Shown: piece by piece, positions 2 to 32,727 of the stretch | How positions within the stretch are numbered: the stretch's first letter is position 1 | Layout of the letters: the number at the start of each line of letters is the position of its first letter | NCBI GenBank assembly: GCA_902635645.1 | Contig: CACPON010000010.1 | Span: forward strand, 1 to 36,955 | Direction: 5' to 3' | Length of the DNA: 36,955 bases | Origin: an uncultured SAR86 cluster bacterium | GTDB lineage: Bacteria > Pseudomonadota > Gammaproteobacteria > Magnimaribacterales > D2472 | Position numbers and translations under genes: made by a program | Notes under the pieces: generated by a model | Told to the model about the DNA's origin: nothing | The model's database searches: none | Seen by the model: only the letters and a program-made list of their open reading frames with translations

Positions 2-1381
2 CAGACTTCAGCATTTACAGTAAATGCAACTGACCCAAATGGAGATACTCTATCATATTCATTAAGCGGTGATGACGCTAGTTTGCTTTCAATTTCTAAT
101 CAAGGTGTTGTAACTTTCAATACTGCGCCAGACTTTGAAAATCCATCTGATGCAGATACTAATAATATCTATAAAATAACAGTTACGGTTTCTGATGGAT
201 ACTTAAGTGCAAATGCAAACTTTGAAATTACAGTTACCAATGATACATCTGACGATGAAACATATTCAGCTTGGGATGGAAATTTAGTTAAAGATGATAC
301 TTACAATCCTTATGATAAGCACTTGAATGCATATGGTTTAGTGGTAGCTGGTTTACCAGATGTAACAGACTCATTTATGACTAATATAGGAAATATTGCA
401 AATCTTATGCTTGCCAAAAATGATGCTACCAATGATACAGATAGAAATTCTCTTTTAAGCAACTTTGAACAATACAAGGCTTTACAAAGAGTTGGTTCAA
501 CTTCATTCGACAGTTATAACCCGACACTAAATGAAGAAAATTATCCAGGATGGGATAATATAAATGATAATAATGCTGTTGTAGATTTTATTTGGGAGGT
601 AACTTCTAATTCATCCACAGATGAACAAAATAATTCTTCTCAGTTGAATGGGATTATTGAGCACCTCCTTCATACCATCACACTTATTTATGATTTAACT
701 TTTAATTCTTGGAGCTATGAGAATGATACATCCGAGCTAGTCCTTGCTATGAATGAGGCCATCAATGGAGGGTATTACGATCCTTCAGGCAACTATGGAG
801 ATCTGGCAGAATCAGATCCAACCGCTTATAAGAGAATAATTGCCCAGGAGTTTGCTTACTGGATGATACTAACTGGCTGGGATCTAAAATCTTCTTATGC
901 TCAAGATTCATCACCTGAATGGACAATCGAGAACCCATCTCAAATGGAATCAAACACTCCACTTGCACACCAACTATTTAACGGTACTATTAATGGTGTT
1001 CTAGTTAATCCTGGTAAAGATTATCTTGACAGCCTAACATTTGAATCAATTCCAACTACACAGTTATCAGAAACTATTACAGTATCGGTTGAACCTAATG
1101 ATAATGGATCAGGAAATGTTTATGTTATTGATGGTGTTCAAAAGAAATCCTTAGAGCTTAAGGTTGGAACAACATATACATTTAATCATTCAAGCTCACA
1201 CCCATTTAGGTTCTCCCAAACTTCCAATGGAACCCATGATGGAGGCAACGAGTATATGAATGGAGTAACAAAATCAAGCGGTGTTACAATTATTGAAGTA
1301 ACATCAAATACTCCAACAAACCTATATTATTATTGTTCTTTACATTCAGGTATGGGTGGAAGTATAACTATTACTAATTAA
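2..1381 (+). CDS. Partial secreted/surface protein with cadherin-like repeat end and C-terminal cupredoxin-like domain (5' end outside window)
   Basis: Frame open from base 2 (QTSAFTVNATDPNGDTLSYSLSGDDAS...) and upstream of the listed TTG start at 83; cadherin-like repeat; C-terminus H..PFRFS...YYYCSLHSGMGGSITI resembles a blue-copper (His/Cys/His/Met) domain. Confidence 0.7.
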   Translation, partial: QTSAFTVNATDPNGDTLSYSLSGDDASLLSISNQGVVTFNTAPDFENPSDADTNNIYKITVTVSDGYLSANANFEITVTNDTSDDETYSAWDGNLVKDDTYNPYDKHLNAYGLVVAGLPDVTDSFMTNIGNIANLMLAKNDATNDTDRNSLLSNFEQYKALQRVGSTSFDSYNPTLNEENYPGWDNINDNNAVVDFIWEVTSNSSTDEQNNSSQLNGIIEHLLHTITLIYDLTFNSWSYENDTSELVLAMNEAINGGYYDPSGNYGDLAESDPTAYKRIIAQEFAYWMILTGWDLKSSYAQDSSPEWTIENPSQMESNTPLAHQLFNGTINGVLVNPGKDYLDSLTFESIPTTQLSETITVSVEPNDNGSGNVYVIDGVQKKSLELKVGTTYTFNHSSSHPFRFSQTSNGTHDGGNEYMNGVTKSSGVTIIEVTSNTPTNLYYYCSLHSGMGGSITITN

Positions 1382-13227: not shown

Positions 13228-13875
13228 TTGGGCAATGAAAACTACCAGCTCTCATCTATATGCAATCAAAAAGGTGAGGTAATGGCCGGATTTATTATTC
13301 ATAAGTCAAAAAACTACAAAATATTAATAGATGAAACTCTTGTAAATATATTTATCGATGAGTTAAGTCCATTTGCAAAATTTTTTGGTGCTACCTTCTC
13401 TGTTGAAGATGGTTTTGTGCATGGTCATATAACACAAGATAAAAATGAAAAAGCATTTTTTTCAAATGATATATTCTCACTTTCAGTTTCATTAGAAAAA
13501 GAAATTCATGTTAATGATCAATCTCTATTGATGAATGATTGGGTTGTTGCCAATAAACTAGCACTAAATATTGATTTGAACCTTAATGATATTGGTAAGT
13601 ACAGGCCCTTAGAGATAAATTATGATAAAAATAGGGTTGCTTTTGATAAAGGTTGCTTTAGAGGCCAAGAAATTATTGCTAGGATGAAATATCTTGGTGT
13701 TGATAGAAGAAAATTCGTAACCATAATTTCTACAGAAGCCATTAAAGAAAACAAAAATTTTAAAGTTATTGGTGAAATTGTAAGATATAAAGACCTTTAT
13801 ATTTTTAGTAGCTTAATAAAAAGAGATTTTCTTGATGAGTTTTCTTCAAACAACCCAAGCGTAGTAATTATCTAG
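13228..13875 (+). CDS. ygfZ: tRNA-modifying protein YgfZ (folate-binding); true start probably upstream
   Basis: KGCFRGQEIIARMKYLG signature; conserved N-terminal sequence (LISFGSIYLEAIKIISVHGDIDKVENLLQGQITSDVTLL) is in frame upstream of the listed TTG start, frame open to 13060. Confidence 0.88.
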   Translation: MGNENYQLSSICNQKGEVMAGFIIHKSKNYKILIDETLVNIFIDELSPFAKFFGATFSVEDGFVHGHITQDKNEKAFFSNDIFSLSVSLEKEIHVNDQSLLMNDWVVANKLALNIDLNLNDIGKYRPLEINYDKNRVAFDKGCFRGQEIIARMKYLGVDRRKFVTIISTEAIKENKNFKVIGEIVRYKDLYIFSSLIKRDFLDEFSSNNPSVVII

Positions 13876-13877
13876 AA

Positions 13878-14564
13878 CTACCATAAGATAGGTTGCTTTT
13901 TATTTTTTATAAGAAGTTCATTAGTTAATGAAAAATGTTTACACCCAAAAAAACCCCTATATGAAGATAGTGGAGAAGGATGAGATGATTTGAGTATGTG
14001 ATTAACATTTTTATCTATGAGTTTTTCTTTTTCTTGAGCATCTCTGCCCCACAAAAGAAAAATAACTCCCCCTTTTATATTAAGAAGATCAATAACGGAA
14101 TCTACTAAAATATTCCAACCAATATTTTTATGAGACCCAGCTTCAGACTTATTTACGGTCAATGAAGAATTTAACAAAAGCACACCTTGAGCTGCCCACT
14201 GCTCAAGATTGCCTGAACTATGAATACAGTCTCCTATATCATCCTGGATTTCTTTATAAATATTTTTTAAAGAACTAGGGATTTTGTTGCCCTTGTTTAC
14301 TGCAAATGCAAGACCGTTTGCTAAGCCTGGTTGGTGATATGGATCTTGCCCAAATATAACTACTTTTGTATTTGAAAAACTGCACAATTTAAAAGCCTTA
14401 TAGATATCCTGTAAGGCAGGATATATTTCTTTGCCCGCTTGTTGAAATGATAAAAGTTTATTTATTGGTTCAAATAGGTTGAATGAAATTCCATTCTTTC
14501 TGAGTTCATAATCCCAATCATTTGGTATTTTATTTAGTGATTTAATTTGTTGCATTTTTATCAA
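13878..14564 (-). CDS. ung: Uracil-DNA glycosylase
   Basis: VVIFGQDPYHQPGLANGLAFAV and HPSPLSSYRGFFGCKHF motifs. Confidence 0.97.
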   Translation of the reverse strand: MIKMQQIKSLNKIPNDWDYELRKNGISFNLFEPINKLLSFQQAGKEIYPALQDIYKAFKLCSFSNTKVVIFGQDPYHQPGLANGLAFAVNKGNKIPSSLKNIYKEIQDDIGDCIHSSGNLEQWAAQGVLLLNSSLTVNKSEAGSHKNIGWNILVDSVIDLLNIKGGVIFLLWGRDAQEKEKLIDKNVNHILKSSHPSPLSSYRGFFGCKHFSLTNELLIKNKKQPILW

Positions 14565-14569
14565 AATTT

Positions 14570-14592
14570 TTATCCACAGAAACTGTGGATAA
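14570..14592. promoter_or_regulatory. Inverted pair of consensus DnaA boxes upstream of ung
   Basis: TTATCCACAG-AAA-CTGTGGATAA, perfect 10-bp inverted repeat; each arm holds a perfect TTATCCACA. Confidence 0.7.
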
Positions 14593-14608
14593 AGTTATGG
14601 ATAACTTT
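14591..14608. repeat. Perfect inverted repeat AAAGTTAT-GG-ATAACTTT containing a near-DnaA box
   Basis: 8-bp arms; TTATCCATA on minus strand differs from TTATCCACA at one base; abuts the DnaA-box palindrome. Confidence 0.6.
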
Positions 14609-14854
14609 ATTTATACCATAACAAAGCCTTATATTTAAAGGTTTTATTAAAGTTGAACAAAATTTATACAATTATTATATAAATAACCGCATATCAGTAA
14701 CTTATGAAATATTTATAAAAAATATTGTCGATGTAAAGTAAACTTATCAAGTGCCCCAATATCATTAATTTGTCTTGTTGACAAGTGTTAATATATGTTA
14801 ATTGTTTACAAAAATTAAAAACGACAGAAGTTGATATTAAATTAAGTTATTTGC

Positions 14855-16036
14855 TCACAAATTACTACAGAGTCTAACGTTAATAACGTGGTCAATATTT
14901 TTAATATTTTCTATTAGTTCTTGTGATGGCTTATCTTCTAAATCTATTAAATTGATACCGATTGCGTCTCTACTCTTGTGTGTCATGTCAGCAATATTAA
15001 TATTTTTGTAACCAATCTCATCTGTGATTTTACCAATCATTCCTGGTTCATTTTTATTAATAATGACCATTCTATATTCTGTCTTTCTTCCCAACTTTAT
15101 TGATGGAAAATTTACAGAATTAACAATAACTCCATCTTTCAAAAAATTTGATATTTGTTCGGCTGCCATAACAGCACAATTAATTTCAGCTTCTTTTGTG
15201 CTTGCTCCAAGATGGGGTAATAGGATAACGTCATGAAAATCATTAGATCTTGTTACTAACTCTGGTGTAGGAAAATCTGTTACAAATTTATCAATAATTT
15301 TTGTATCAAGAGCCTCGATGATATCTTCATTGTTAACAATACCGCCTCTAGATAAATTGATTAACTTTGCTCCTTTTTTAAAATGTTTTAAAGATTTTTT
15401 TGAGATTAAATCCTTTGTTTCATCAACAAGTGGAACATGAATTGAAATATAGTCAGAATTATTTAAAAGGTATTCCATAGAATCTGCTTTTTCTACATCT
15501 TTAGGGAGTCTCCATGCTGCATCAATTGATATATATGGGTCATATCCTATTATTTTCATACCCATGACTTCAGCTGTTTGTGCAAGCAATGAACCAATTG
15601 CACCAAGTCCTATAATTCCTAGGGTTTTGCCTTTAAGCTCATTACCTTTGAAGTTCTTTTTCTGGGATTCCATAGATTTATTAAGCTCTGATGTATCTTG
15701 ACCAGATAATGTCTTTGAATACAAATTACCTTGGATTATTCCTCTTGATGAGAGAAGCATTCCGCAAACTACAAGTTCTTTTACTGCATTTGCATTAGCT
15801 CCTGGTGTATTGAAAACAACTATTCCATTGTCCGTTGCAATATCAACTGGGATGTTATTTGTTCCAGCTCCAGCTCTGCCAATGCATTTTAAAGATTGGT
15901 TAAAATCAGCATCTGTAAGCAGCTGACTTCTTAATATAAGTGAATCGGGATCAATTTCATCAATATGAAAGTCATTGGCGTCGAATATATCAATGCCATC
16001 TTGAGCAATATTATTAAAAATTTTGTATGTAAACAT
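14855..16036 (-). CDS. serA: D-3-phosphoglycerate dehydrogenase with C-terminal ACT-like domain
   Basis: GRAGAGTNNIPVDIATDNGIVVFNTPGANANAVKEL, GIIGLGAIGSLLAQ, LINLSRGGIVNNEDI, HLGASTKEAE. Confidence 0.93.
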   Translation of the reverse strand: MFTYKIFNNIAQDGIDIFDANDFHIDEIDPDSLILRSQLLTDADFNQSLKCIGRAGAGTNNIPVDIATDNGIVVFNTPGANANAVKELVVCGMLLSSRGIIQGNLYSKTLSGQDTSELNKSMESQKKNFKGNELKGKTLGIIGLGAIGSLLAQTAEVMGMKIIGYDPYISIDAAWRLPKDVEKADSMEYLLNNSDYISIHVPLVDETKDLISKKSLKHFKKGAKLINLSRGGIVNNEDIIEALDTKIIDKFVTDFPTPELVTRSNDFHDVILLPHLGASTKEAEINCAVMAAEQISNFLKDGVIVNSVNFPSIKLGRKTEYRMVIINKNEPGMIGKITDEIGYKNINIADMTHKSRDAIGINLIDLEDKPSQELIENIKNIDHVINVRLCSNL

Positions 16037-16103
16037 TGAAAAAGAAAAGTTATGTTTTTAAAACACAAGATTATATATAAAAAAATTTATTTTATAAGAT
16101 AAT

Positions 16104-17564
16104 TTATTGCTTAATATTAGATATAGTTGTTTCTATATACTTTTTCCAAGACGAATAGTCGCTGTTATAAAAATCTTCAGAGCTTCCATCAGGTTTATAT
16201 ATATTTTCAAGTCTTGGCTTAATGTCTTCGATGGATAAACCTTCAGCTATTTGAGAGACAATACATGCTCCAAGAGCTGTTGATTCAATGTTTTCTGGTT
16301 TAGAGATATTTTTTTGAAGTGTATTGGATAATAACTGACAAAAAGTTTTATTTGCTGTCATGCCGCCATCAACTAGTAGTGAGTTTATTTTAATATTATT
16401 TTTCATAAGTAAGTCTGTTATATCTCTAGTTTGGTAACAAATAGATTTAAACGCTGCTGTTATCAAGTCATTATTATCAGAATCTTGGGTTATACCGTAA
16501 AAGCCACCTCTAATATCTGAATTCCAGTACGGAGCCCCTAATCCATTAAACGCAGGTAAGAAATGAACATTTTTAGAATTACCATCGCTGTTTAAAAAAG
16601 ATTCGCTATCTCTAGCATTTGTAAAAAATTTCATTTTATCTCTAAGCCACTGAATAATATTTCCGCAGGAATAAATACTTCCTTCAATTGCATAACTAAT
16701 TTCGTTATTTAATTGGTATCCAACAGTTGTTAGTAGTCCCTCATCTAGAGTTATTATATTTTTTTTGGTGTTTACCATTAAAAAACAGCCCGTTCCATAA
16801 GTAGACTTCATGTCACCGTAGGTAAAACAATTTTGTCCAACTAGTGCTGCCTGTTGATCGCCTATAACACCTTTAATGCTTATGTTTTTATTATCCACAG
16901 ATAAAGTACCAAAATTTGCATTACATGATTGAACAGATGGCATCATAGAAATAGGTATATCAAATAAATCTAATAAATCTTTATCCCATTTCATCTCATT
17001 GATATTAAATAGCATGGTTCTAGATGCATTGGTTACATCTGTATAATGGTCTTTTTCTTTTGTCAGCTTATATATCAAGTAGGAGTCAATCGTACCAAAC
17101 ATTAACTTACCATTATTAGCAAGCTCTCTTGCGCCAGTCACATTATCAAGAATCCATTTAATTTTAGTAGCAGAAAAATATGGATCTATGACAAGCCCTG
17201 TTTTTTCTCTTACCATTTTTTCGTGGCCACTATCCTTAAGTTCTTTGCAAAACTCATGAGTACGTCTGTCTTGCCAGATTATGGCTGGATAAATTGGTTC
17301 ATCTGTTTCTCGAGACCAAACAACAGTAGACTCTCTTTGATTGGTTATTCCACAAGCTGTTATAGCATTCTCTTTTTTTAGAACATCACTAATAGTATTT
17401 TTAACAGTGTTTAATATGTCAGCGGGGTCAGCTTCAACCCAACCGTCATTTGGATAAGACAAAGAGTATTCCTCTTGAGAGTCTGTAATTGCATTAAGTT
17501 GTGAATTAAAAACTATTGCTCTTGAACTTGTTGTTCCTTGGTCTATTGCTAAAAAATTACTCAT
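16104..17564 (-). CDS. glpK: Glycerol kinase (start chosen at MSNFLAIDQGTTSSRA)
   Basis: FGGY kinase signatures (DQGTTSSRA, GDQQAALVGQ, GLGAPYW, DGGMTAN); GGGAGA Shine-Dalgarno upstream of 17564. Confidence 0.95.
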   Translation of the reverse strand: MSNFLAIDQGTTSSRAIVFNSQLNAITDSQEEYSLSYPNDGWVEADPADILNTVKNTISDVLKKENAITACGITNQRESTVVWSRETDEPIYPAIIWQDRRTHEFCKELKDSGHEKMVREKTGLVIDPYFSATKIKWILDNVTGARELANNGKLMFGTIDSYLIYKLTKEKDHYTDVTNASRTMLFNINEMKWDKDLLDLFDIPISMMPSVQSCNANFGTLSVDNKNISIKGVIGDQQAALVGQNCFTYGDMKSTYGTGCFLMVNTKKNIITLDEGLLTTVGYQLNNEISYAIEGSIYSCGNIIQWLRDKMKFFTNARDSESFLNSDGNSKNVHFLPAFNGLGAPYWNSDIRGGFYGITQDSDNNDLITAAFKSICYQTRDITDLLMKNNIKINSLLVDGGMTANKTFCQLLSNTLQKNISKPENIESTALGACIVSQIAEGLSIEDIKPRLENIYKPDGSSEDFYNSDYSSWKKYIETTISNIKQ

Positions 17565-17586
17565 AAAATATCTCCCATAACCATAA

Positions 17587-17595
17587 TTATCCACA
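17587..17595 (+). promoter_or_regulatory. DnaA box TTATCCACA
   Basis: Perfect 9-mer in glpK-nrdA intergenic region. Confidence 0.6.
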
Positions 17596-17636
17596 ATTTA
17601 TCAACTGATTGCCAACAGCAAAAAAACAGCTTACAT

Positions 17637-17681
17637 ACACTATATAGTGAAAAAAAATGAAATTGTCACAATATATAGTGT
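17637..17681 (+). promoter_or_regulatory. Two NrdR-box-like palindromes upstream of nrdA
   Basis: CACTATATAGTG (17638-17649) and TCACAATATATAGTGT (17666-17681), centres about 30 bp apart; second matches acaCwAtATaTwGtgt at 15 of 16 positions. Confidence 0.7.
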
Positions 17682-17689
17682 TTTTTTAC

Positions 17690-17717
17690 TTGATTCTTTA
17701 TCCACAACAAGTAATAT
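17690..17717 (+). promoter_or_regulatory. Candidate nrdA promoter with a DnaA box in the spacer
   Basis: -35-like TTGATT (17690-17695), 16-nt spacer, -10-like TAATAT (17712-17717); TTATCCACA at 17698-17706 lies between. Confidence 0.4.
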
Positions 17718-30832: not shown

Positions 30833-31444
30833 TTAAAAAAAGAAAAATCTTTTTTTCTTTAATTCTTTGGCACATCCCCAGTATTGCTGTTGATATTTAG
30901 TTGATCTTGTTTGCACTCTATCAGCTACTTTTATTAGCCAAGGTTTTTTTCTATAAGTTTTTTTCTTAAAGCCACCATACCCTTCATGATATGCAAGATA
31001 CAGCGATCTAGCATCTAACCTATCAAATCCTTGATAATAACCTTTAGATGCATACCATCCTATGAAATCTGCTGAATCCTTAAAATTCTTTCTGCTTGCT
31101 CCTGAATTTCCAGTTTCATCTTTGTAGTCTTCCCAAGTCATGTTGAGTGCCTGAGAATAACCTACAGCTGTAGATTTTCTCTTCCAGGGTATTACCCATA
31201 ATAACTTCGTTCTTTCTGGTTTTGCATCTGCTTTAAAACTAGATTCTTGATAAACAAATGACATAAGAACATAAGGAGGAATTTTCCACCTCTTTTCTGA
31301 TTTCATTGCAGCCTTGTACCAGCTTTTCTTTTCTTCAAATATTAAACATATGTTATCTGGATTTTGGGGTGGTGTAGTCATGCATGATTGAAGAGAGAAT
31401 ATCAAAACTATAAAAAACGAAGTTTTTAAAAATCTAATATTCAT
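30833..31444 (-). CDS. SLT-type lytic transglycosylase-like lipoprotein
   Basis: Lipobox FSLQSC; PPYVLMSFVYQESSFKADA, AVGYSQALNMTW, YLAYHEGYGG. Confidence 0.78.
   Translation of the reverse strand: MNIRFLKTSFFIVLIFSLQSCMTTPPQNPDNICLIFEEKKSWYKAAMKSEKRWKIPPYVLMSFVYQESSFKADAKPERTKLLWVIPWKRKSTAVGYSQALNMTWEDYKDETGNSGASRKNFKDSADFIGWYASKGYYQGFDRLDARSLYLAYHEGYGGFKKKTYRKKPWLIKVADRVQTRSTKYQQQYWGCAKELKKKRFFFF
30835..30856. terminator. Candidate bidirectional AT-rich terminator between convergent genes
   Basis: AAAAAAAGA-AAAA-TCTTTTTTT perfect 9-bp inverted repeat; lies inside the 3' coding end (KRFFFF) of the minus-strand gene. Confidence 0.45.
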
Positions 31445-32727
31445 CAGACTTTTTCCCCTGGCTCAAAACCTCTAAATGTTTTAAAACGAGGAAATCTTAA
31501 ACTGTAACTTTCACCTTCCATACTCTGTGTTACTGCATCTGCTCGAATTTCTATTAATTGTCCTATCAATGAATCTTTATGTTGCCAAAATTTTTCTCTA
31601 TTTTCATCTGTCAAACCACTGCCCACATTTAATGAAAAAAATTTGCCATCGTCATTGCCCTCAACTGTAAATGCTCCTAGCTTACCAGCATGTCTTCCAG
31701 TGCCCTCGTGAACCTCAGTTACTTTTAATGTAACTTCAATAAAAGGTTTCATTTTTAGCCAAGCATGACTTCTTTTGCACTCATATAAATCATTCTCAGG
31801 TTTAATCATCAACCCTTCATAGCCTCGCTCTAATGCCTCTTTGTTCATTTGAGTATAAGTTTCTTCGCCCTGCTCTTTATCAAAATCTACAACCGTATAA
31901 TCAACAATCTTAATACATGAAGGAAATTTATTAGCAAATTTCTCTAAATGATGTTTTCTTTCAAGGGTGGTAAGCTTGCTTTTGCCATCGTTAAATTCTT
32001 TAAGAGGTAAAATATCAAACAAAGCTAAATATGCATCTTCTGTTTTTGCATTGGTTTTCCTATGAACCTGTTTCATTAATGATTGAAAGTCATCACTCAT
32101 AACCTCGCCATCAAAAACCATATTATTAAATTCAGGTTTGCTTAATGCTTCTTCAATATGAGGAAAATTGCTAAATATTTTTCCATTTCTGCTATAGAGG
32201 GTTGTATTATTTTTCTTAGTTATTGCGATTACTCTCACTCCATCATATTTATATTCAATTAAACAGTTACCTCTAATCTTTTTTGGATGTTTCATTCCGT
32301 CATGAGATAGCATGCATGCAAAAACAGGCACTCTAAATTGAATATCTATTTTTTTTGCGACATTGTTCACCGTCTTCTCACTTACGCCGCACCTCAAATC
32401 CTTTATTAAGATTCTTCTATACCAATCATTCCACTCTTCTGAAGTGGCTTTATCCATTAGCTCCAAAATTTCATCCCTAGCAGCATGACCAGTTTTCTCT
32501 CTTTCAATCAGAAGTAAAGCTGAGTTCTTAAAAGTACTCCAATCCAATCCATTTCCATTTTTATCAGATTTAGGAACTTGTTTAACGCCAAATGTTACTA
32601 ATGCATCTAAGCACATTGATAGACCTTCTTGAAATTCCAGATCATTAATATTTTCTTCAATAACGCTTTCTTTGAATAATCTACTATTATCACTTTCAAG
32701 TTTTTGAATTATTTTCCAGGGCTTCAT
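31444..32727 (-). CDS. ATP-dependent DNA ligase, phage-type
   Basis: Motif I EYKYDGVR, III VFDGEV, IIIa LALFDILP, IV EGLMIKP, V AWLKMKP; C-terminal SLRFPRFKTFRG resembles phage T7 ligase tail. Confidence 0.93.
   Translation of the reverse strand: MKPWKIIQKLESDNSRLFKESVIEENINDLEFQEGLSMCLDALVTFGVKQVPKSDKNGNGLDWSTFKNSALLLIEREKTGHAARDEILELMDKATSEEWNDWYRRILIKDLRCGVSEKTVNNVAKKIDIQFRVPVFACMLSHDGMKHPKKIRGNCLIEYKYDGVRVIAITKKNNTTLYSRNGKIFSNFPHIEEALSKPEFNNMVFDGEVMSDDFQSLMKQVHRKTNAKTEDAYLALFDILPLKEFNDGKSKLTTLERKHHLEKFANKFPSCIKIVDYTVVDFDKEQGEETYTQMNKEALERGYEGLMIKPENDLYECKRSHAWLKMKPFIEVTLKVTEVHEGTGRHAGKLGAFTVEGNDDGKFFSLNVGSGLTDENREKFWQHKDSLIGQLIEIRADAVTQSMEGESYSLRFPRFKTFRGFEPGEKV

Follow-up and report, generated by a model that had tools for sequence, protein, structure and literature searches.

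The locus at 14570-14608 raises the question of what a composite palindrome of DnaA boxes does immediately upstream of ung in a SAR86 cluster bacterium. The window, which is the whole stretch of DNA analysed (36,955 nucleotides), lies on contig C10 of a genome of 888 kb that is 66% complete. The original prediction read two fused palindromes at this place, and both are present letter for letter: TTATCCACAG-AAA-CTGTGGATAA (that is, TTATCCACAGAAACTGTGGATAA) occupies 14570-14592, and AAAGTTAT-GG-ATAACTTT (that is, AAAGTTATGGATAACTTT) occupies 14591-14608, with perfect 8-bp arms around a GG centre. The core palindrome is single-copy in the window's genome at up to three mismatches (reversed control, 0) and is more than a product of chance. 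Exact copies of TTATCCACA number nine in the whole genome, and five of them fall inside 3.1 kb of the window (14570-17706). The gap between ung and the serA-like gene had been described as one of the largest in the window; its size of approximately 290 bp is indeed large, but it is exceeded by the gap at 1716-2087, which measures 372 bp. The genes around it in the window are ung (-), a ygfZ-like gene (+), the serA-like gene (-), glpK (-), and nrdAB (+). The features of the locus are as follows.

14570..14578, plus strand: DnaA box I, TTATCCACA, exact consensus, aligning with box I of E. coli DARS1 and DARS2
14584..14592, minus strand: DnaA box II, TTATCCACA, facing box I head-to-head across a 5-bp spacer, its start 14 bp beyond that of box I
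14596..14604, minus strand: DnaA box III, TTATCCATA, in the orientation of box II and 12 bp further
14655..14669, no strand assigned: Fis-consensus site GAACAAAATTTATAC (GnnYAnnnnnTRnnC), +85 from box I
14692..14704, plus strand: IHF-consensus site TATCAGTAACTTA (consensus WATCARNNNNTTR), perfect match, +122 from box I
14776..14784, minus strand: weak box IV-like DnaA box TTGTCAACA, 2 mismatches, +206 from box I, oriented as boxes II and III
13878..14564, minus strand: ung (uracil-DNA glycosylase), alternative ATG at 14555, start 6-15 bp from box I
14855..16036, minus strand: serA-like D-2-hydroxyacid / phosphoglycerate dehydrogenase, on the other flank of the element
13228..13875, plus strand: ygfZ-like gene, convergent with ung and adjoining it in most of the order

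The orientation and spacing of the three core boxes support the link to DnaA and replication control that had been proposed for this site. In E. coli, DARS1 and DARS2 are the sites that turn ADP-DnaA back into ATP-DnaA; box I points against boxes II and III, with equal spacing in the two elements (PMC5742627). The box starts of the window lie at 0 (+), 14 (-), and 26 (-), with spacings of 14 and 12 bp, and these offsets are identical to those of the E. coli DARS1 core (L034, 2108+/2122-/2134-) and of the E. coli DARS2 core (L035, 3136+/3150-/3162-). Both E. coli cores are pinned by the double boxes of a ChIP-seq table (Table 1 of PMC11317965), and the DARS2 core is also fixed by the primers of a box I-III deletion (PMC4585315). 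The window element thus has the three boxes, the inverted box I, and the spacing of a DARS core. On this architecture, the segment 14570-14784 is very likely a DnaA-reactivating sequence (DARS), nearest in kind to E. coli DARS2.

The likeness to DARS2, which is situated in the rppH-mutH region, extends beyond the three-box core with its inverted box I and 14/12 spacing. IHF and Fis consensus sites are both located on the box III side: the IHF site beside the core is perfect at +122 (IBS2 of E. coli is at +109), and a Fis site of the form GnnYAnnnnnTRnnC is present in the regulatory region at +85. A further DnaA box lies near +205 to +213, comparable with box V of E. coli at +211. However, there are differences in the arrangement of these parts. 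DARS2 has the order core-IHF-Fis (FBS2-3, required), with IHF at +93/+109 followed by Fis at approximately +145 to +211, whereas in the window Fis at +85 precedes IHF at +122, giving the order core-Fis-IHF-box IV. Furthermore, the distal box of the window is weak and lies on the opposite strand, and the element is found not by mutH but upstream of ung, in each of the order's four families (f1 to f4). Because the order of Fis and IHF differs, the element is filed as a DARS2-like variant and not as DARS2 itself. Compared with E. coli DARS1 (bioD-uvrB), the core spacing is the same, box II is identical, and the element is likewise upstream of a DNA-repair gene (uvrB there, ung here), but DARS1 lacks an IHF consensus and the window element has one.

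High-affinity boxes together with an IHF site are also found at E. coli datA, a non-coding DnaA-box cluster that controls the nucleotide state of DnaA, and a DnaA sink (titration site) or an inactivating site of the datA type could be built from the same parts. The essential boxes of datA, which flank an IHF site, all share one orientation (PMC5742627), whereas the core of the window is head-to-head, with box I inverted at the exact spacer. A sink would need neither the exact 5-bp spacer nor fixed Fis and IHF offsets, and both of these readings are very unlikely. Titration, or control of ung alone, had been put forward in the original prediction; each is the weaker account, because the box orientation and spacing are those of the E. 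coli DARS core and the Fis and IHF distances are fixed, although control of ung may be a second role of the element.

Two side observations touch on these known systems. The ygfZ-like gene (13228-13875) keeps its place next to ung and the element in most of the order, an adjacency that may be chance; E. coli YgfZ influences initiation via IHF binding at datA (PMC13036160). Upstream of nrdA, 3 kb from the DARS-like site, the window carries a double DnaA box, TTATCCACAatTTATCAACT, at 17587-17606 (2-bp spacing), another exact box at 17698-17706, and two NrdR-box-like palindromes, ACACTATATAGTG and ACAATATATAGTGT (17637-17649, 17668-17681), so that this region looks like the E. coli nrdA promoter, which is under DnaA control. 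Unlike the ung element, the double DnaA box of the E. coli nrdA promoter has no inverted box I listed, and we know of no fixed array of Fis and IHF sites at that promoter.

Conservation of the palindrome upstream of ung in relatives had been set as a check on the prediction, and it is clearly present. At up to three mismatches, the palindrome occurs in 89/107 family genomes and in 18/19 of the good ones. The pair of boxes I and II (18 bases, up to two mismatches) is more widespread still, with 175/203 order genomes and 39/40 good ones; it was not found in G054 (91% complete), possibly on account of a missing contig. A scan of named genomes for the three-box pattern matched numerous SAR86 cluster bacteria, among them the complete genome CP097973.1. 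The core lies directly upstream of ung in each of the four families, and their Ung proteins are merely ~40-55% identical to that of the window. Over 76 order loci, selected by a mismatch limit that favours box conservation without forcing it, boxes I and II vary at just one of their 18 bases, and there with a single exception. Box III is weaker in family f4 (TTTTCCCCA).

The same 76 loci bear on the reading of the palindrome as an RNA hairpin, either a terminator of the serA-like gene or a hairpin in the 5' UTR of ung. The minus strand folds well (z -5.1), and the site was flagged by a terminator scan. However, the stem pair that borders the 9-mers is not maintained, with AC in 10 loci, GT in 9, and TC in 1. 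A stem pair that is freely broken next to near-invariant 9-mers indicates that the selected unit is two protein sites and not a hairpin. In addition, an RNA structure leaves the Fis and IHF consensus sites at fixed distances unexplained, and the palindrome stays by ung even where serA is much more distant. On these three grounds the hairpin or terminator, which has next to no probability left, was dropped.

The flanking features, which played no part in the selection of the loci, hold their distances from the core across the order. A perfect IHF consensus (scanned with WATCAR) is present at +119..122 in 33/33 f1, 28/29 f2, 4/9 f3, and 1/5 f4 loci, 66/76 overall, compared with about 0 at that offset in shuffled sequences. 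Two of the f3 exceptions have the site at +109 and +131, approximately one helical turn off, and four of the five f4 loci have no IHF consensus at the usual place. A perfect Fis consensus is located at +84..86 in 33/33 f1, 29/29 f2, 3/9 f3, and 4/5 f4 loci, where shuffled loci contain 0.12-0.19 sites anywhere per locus. At +204..215, 67/75 order loci have a weak DnaA box oriented as boxes II and III, with 2.4 expected; no box IV was found in the f4 loci.

Most f3 genomes (L194, L195, L197-L204) contain a second head-to-head pair of DnaA boxes, in which box I is often TTATCCACT, the form found in E. coli DARS1, and which lacks an IHF consensus; this second copy is more DARS1-like. In L194 the pair is situated between gcvT and an aspartate aminotransferase gene, and most of the others have flanking ORFs of comparable size and arrangement. 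The pair of G176 is 88 kb away from dnaA.

The original prediction also considered an origin-like site. The combination of DnaA boxes, an IHF site, and AT-rich DNA would suit a chromosomal origin or a second origin-like site, and the locus is among the top DnaA-box clusters of the relative G053. Yet the dnaA gene of the window's own genome is on another contig (C9), next to rnpA and dnaN and with one exact box upstream. In four single-contig relatives (G053, G190, G049, and G176), the GC skew reaches its minimum close to dnaA, and 31-40% of the chromosome separates the element from that region; three of these (G190, G049, G176) were skew-sampled at ~25-37%. For G053, with the skew computed on 1.2 of 1.23 Mb, the cumulative curve bottoms out close to dnaA (0-170 kb) and peaks around 590 kb, and the element is at 419 kb. 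The distance from the element to dnaA is 0.356, 0.314, and 0.395 of the chromosome in G190, G049, and G176, respectively. The element thus does not occupy the skew minimum expected of oriC, and its head-to-head boxes with a 5-bp spacer are of DARS design. An origin at the palindrome is contradicted by the skew in these four genomes, and initiation at the element is, overall, extremely improbable.

With regard to the origin itself, a scan for DnaA-box clusters in G053 (1.2 of 1.23 Mb) brought out no clear oriC. The rpmH-dnaA gap of the window's genome (L001, 1350-1490) contains one exact DnaA box ~85 bp before dnaA and no obvious oriC-like cluster.

Across the class, the box I/II pair (up to two mismatches) occurs in 323/370 sampled genomes, often about twice, compared with ~11/370 for the reversed control. 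When exact boxes were searched with spacers of 0-30 bp, the spacer was 5 bp in 69/75 sites among the matches listed, and two of the six listed sites with another spacer correspond to the box I-III distance. At exactly +12, 18/30 class loci among the matches listed have a sequence resembling box III (up to two mismatches), and no other offset has one in more than 2 of these 30. Furthermore, among the three-box non-SAR86 loci in the matches listed, IHF (up to one mismatch) lies at +117..122 in 22/36 (0.3 expected) and Fis at +84..86 in 13/36 (0.08 expected).

The gene neighbours of these loci, which are examples among the matches listed and not a census, differ from those in SAR86. For approximately 27 non-SAR86 loci among the matches listed, one or two neighbours were tested: seven loci adjoin priA (L281, L291, L334, L354, L358, L172, L175), and five adjoin proS (L287, L293, L321, L352, L192). 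Most of the priA- and proS-adjacent loci among the matches listed also carry box IV at +200..213, and in the proS set the distal DnaA box is often perfect, at +211..213. In the 30 class loci outside the order, no ung is adjacent among the matches listed, so the link to ung appears to be order-specific. DARS-type sites seem to favour the control regions of repair and restart genes (uvrB, mutH, ung, priA).

This distribution also weighs on the reading of the element as a DnaA-controlled promoter operator, in which the nucleotide state of DnaA would repress or activate ung so that uracil repair tracks the replication cycle. The distance of 6-15 bp between box I and the ung start, with the core upstream of ung in four of four families, suits such an operator, and another DnaA-box promoter is nearby, at nrdA. 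E. coli DARS1 is itself upstream of uvrB, and DnaA also regulates transcription (PMC11317965). However, outside SAR86 this multi-part element is found next to priA, proS, and various other genes, a simple operator has no need of Fis, IHF, and distal-box sites at fixed offsets over 210 bp, and a promoter search of the gap between ung and the serA-like gene gave nothing above background. An operator as the whole explanation is unlikely, and the DARS reading is preferred.

The protein partners of a DARS were sought in the relative G053 (IHF, Fis, and Hda) and in the window's own genome (DnaA), and all four were found, the DnaA with residues relevant to DARS. Fis is encoded with a score of 103 bits against an NCBI cut-off of 99, and an Hda-like protein scores 178 bits, below the cut-off of 195. 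IhfA-like and IhfB-like proteins score 55 and 58 bits, below the NCBI cut-offs but as the best matches, and HU is also encoded; as judged from sequence, the SAR86 IHF subunits are divergent. DnaA is 58.5% identical to E. coli DnaA and retains R227, D269, R281, R285, L290, R334, R399, D433, H434, and T435. R399, D433, H434, and T435 are the DNA-contact residues. Activity at DARS or datA has been linked to several of the retained residues (PMC4245941, PMC5742627).

From this architecture we infer a function in ADP release, which might proceed as follows. ADP-DnaA would occupy boxes I, II, and III, and the bound ADP would be loosened by the head-to-head contact between the protomers on boxes I and II, aided by the adjacent protomer on box III. 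IHF at +122 and Fis at +85 would bend the DNA so that the weak distal box (+206) meets the core, and the bending may let the complex assemble at the right time of the cell cycle. The freed apo-DnaA would then take up ATP, giving a larger pool of ATP-DnaA for the following round of initiation at the dnaA-proximal origin.

DARS elements are known from E. coli, Shigella, Erwinia, Yersinia, Photorhabdus, Rahnella, Vibrio, and Shewanella (PMC8682772), and the DARS2 core has been called specific to a group proximal to E. coli (PMC4245941). In the literature covered, mostly open-access papers, no direct report of DARS was found for Pseudomonas, for SAR86, or at priA or proS, and within those limits the four-part layout, with its spread over the class, appears to be undescribed. 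We lean towards DARS being a regulator inherited from the ancestor of the Gammaproteobacteria (a class taken to include the former Betaproteobacteria), composed of the canonical core, Fis (+85), IHF (+120), and a distal box (+200..213) and anchored by priA, proS, or, in SAR86, ung; E. coli DARS2 would then be a rearranged descendant. As a separate observation on this small marine gammaproteobacterial genome, the window encodes an ATP-dependent DNA ligase-like protein near smc (31444-32727).

For SAR86, the result means that streamlined, mostly uncultured ocean bacteria carry the full set of DARS parts, in one copy in most genomes. The recurrence of the core in most of the class provides hundreds of natural variants in which spacings can be probed against ADP release. 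If the ancestral reading is true, the recharging site would often lie inside the control regions of replication-restart and repair genes. The finding raises a testable link between DnaA recharging and the repair genes uvrB, mutH, ung, and priA. It also suggests that the recharging of DnaA is an old and near-obligatory piece of replication control in the class.
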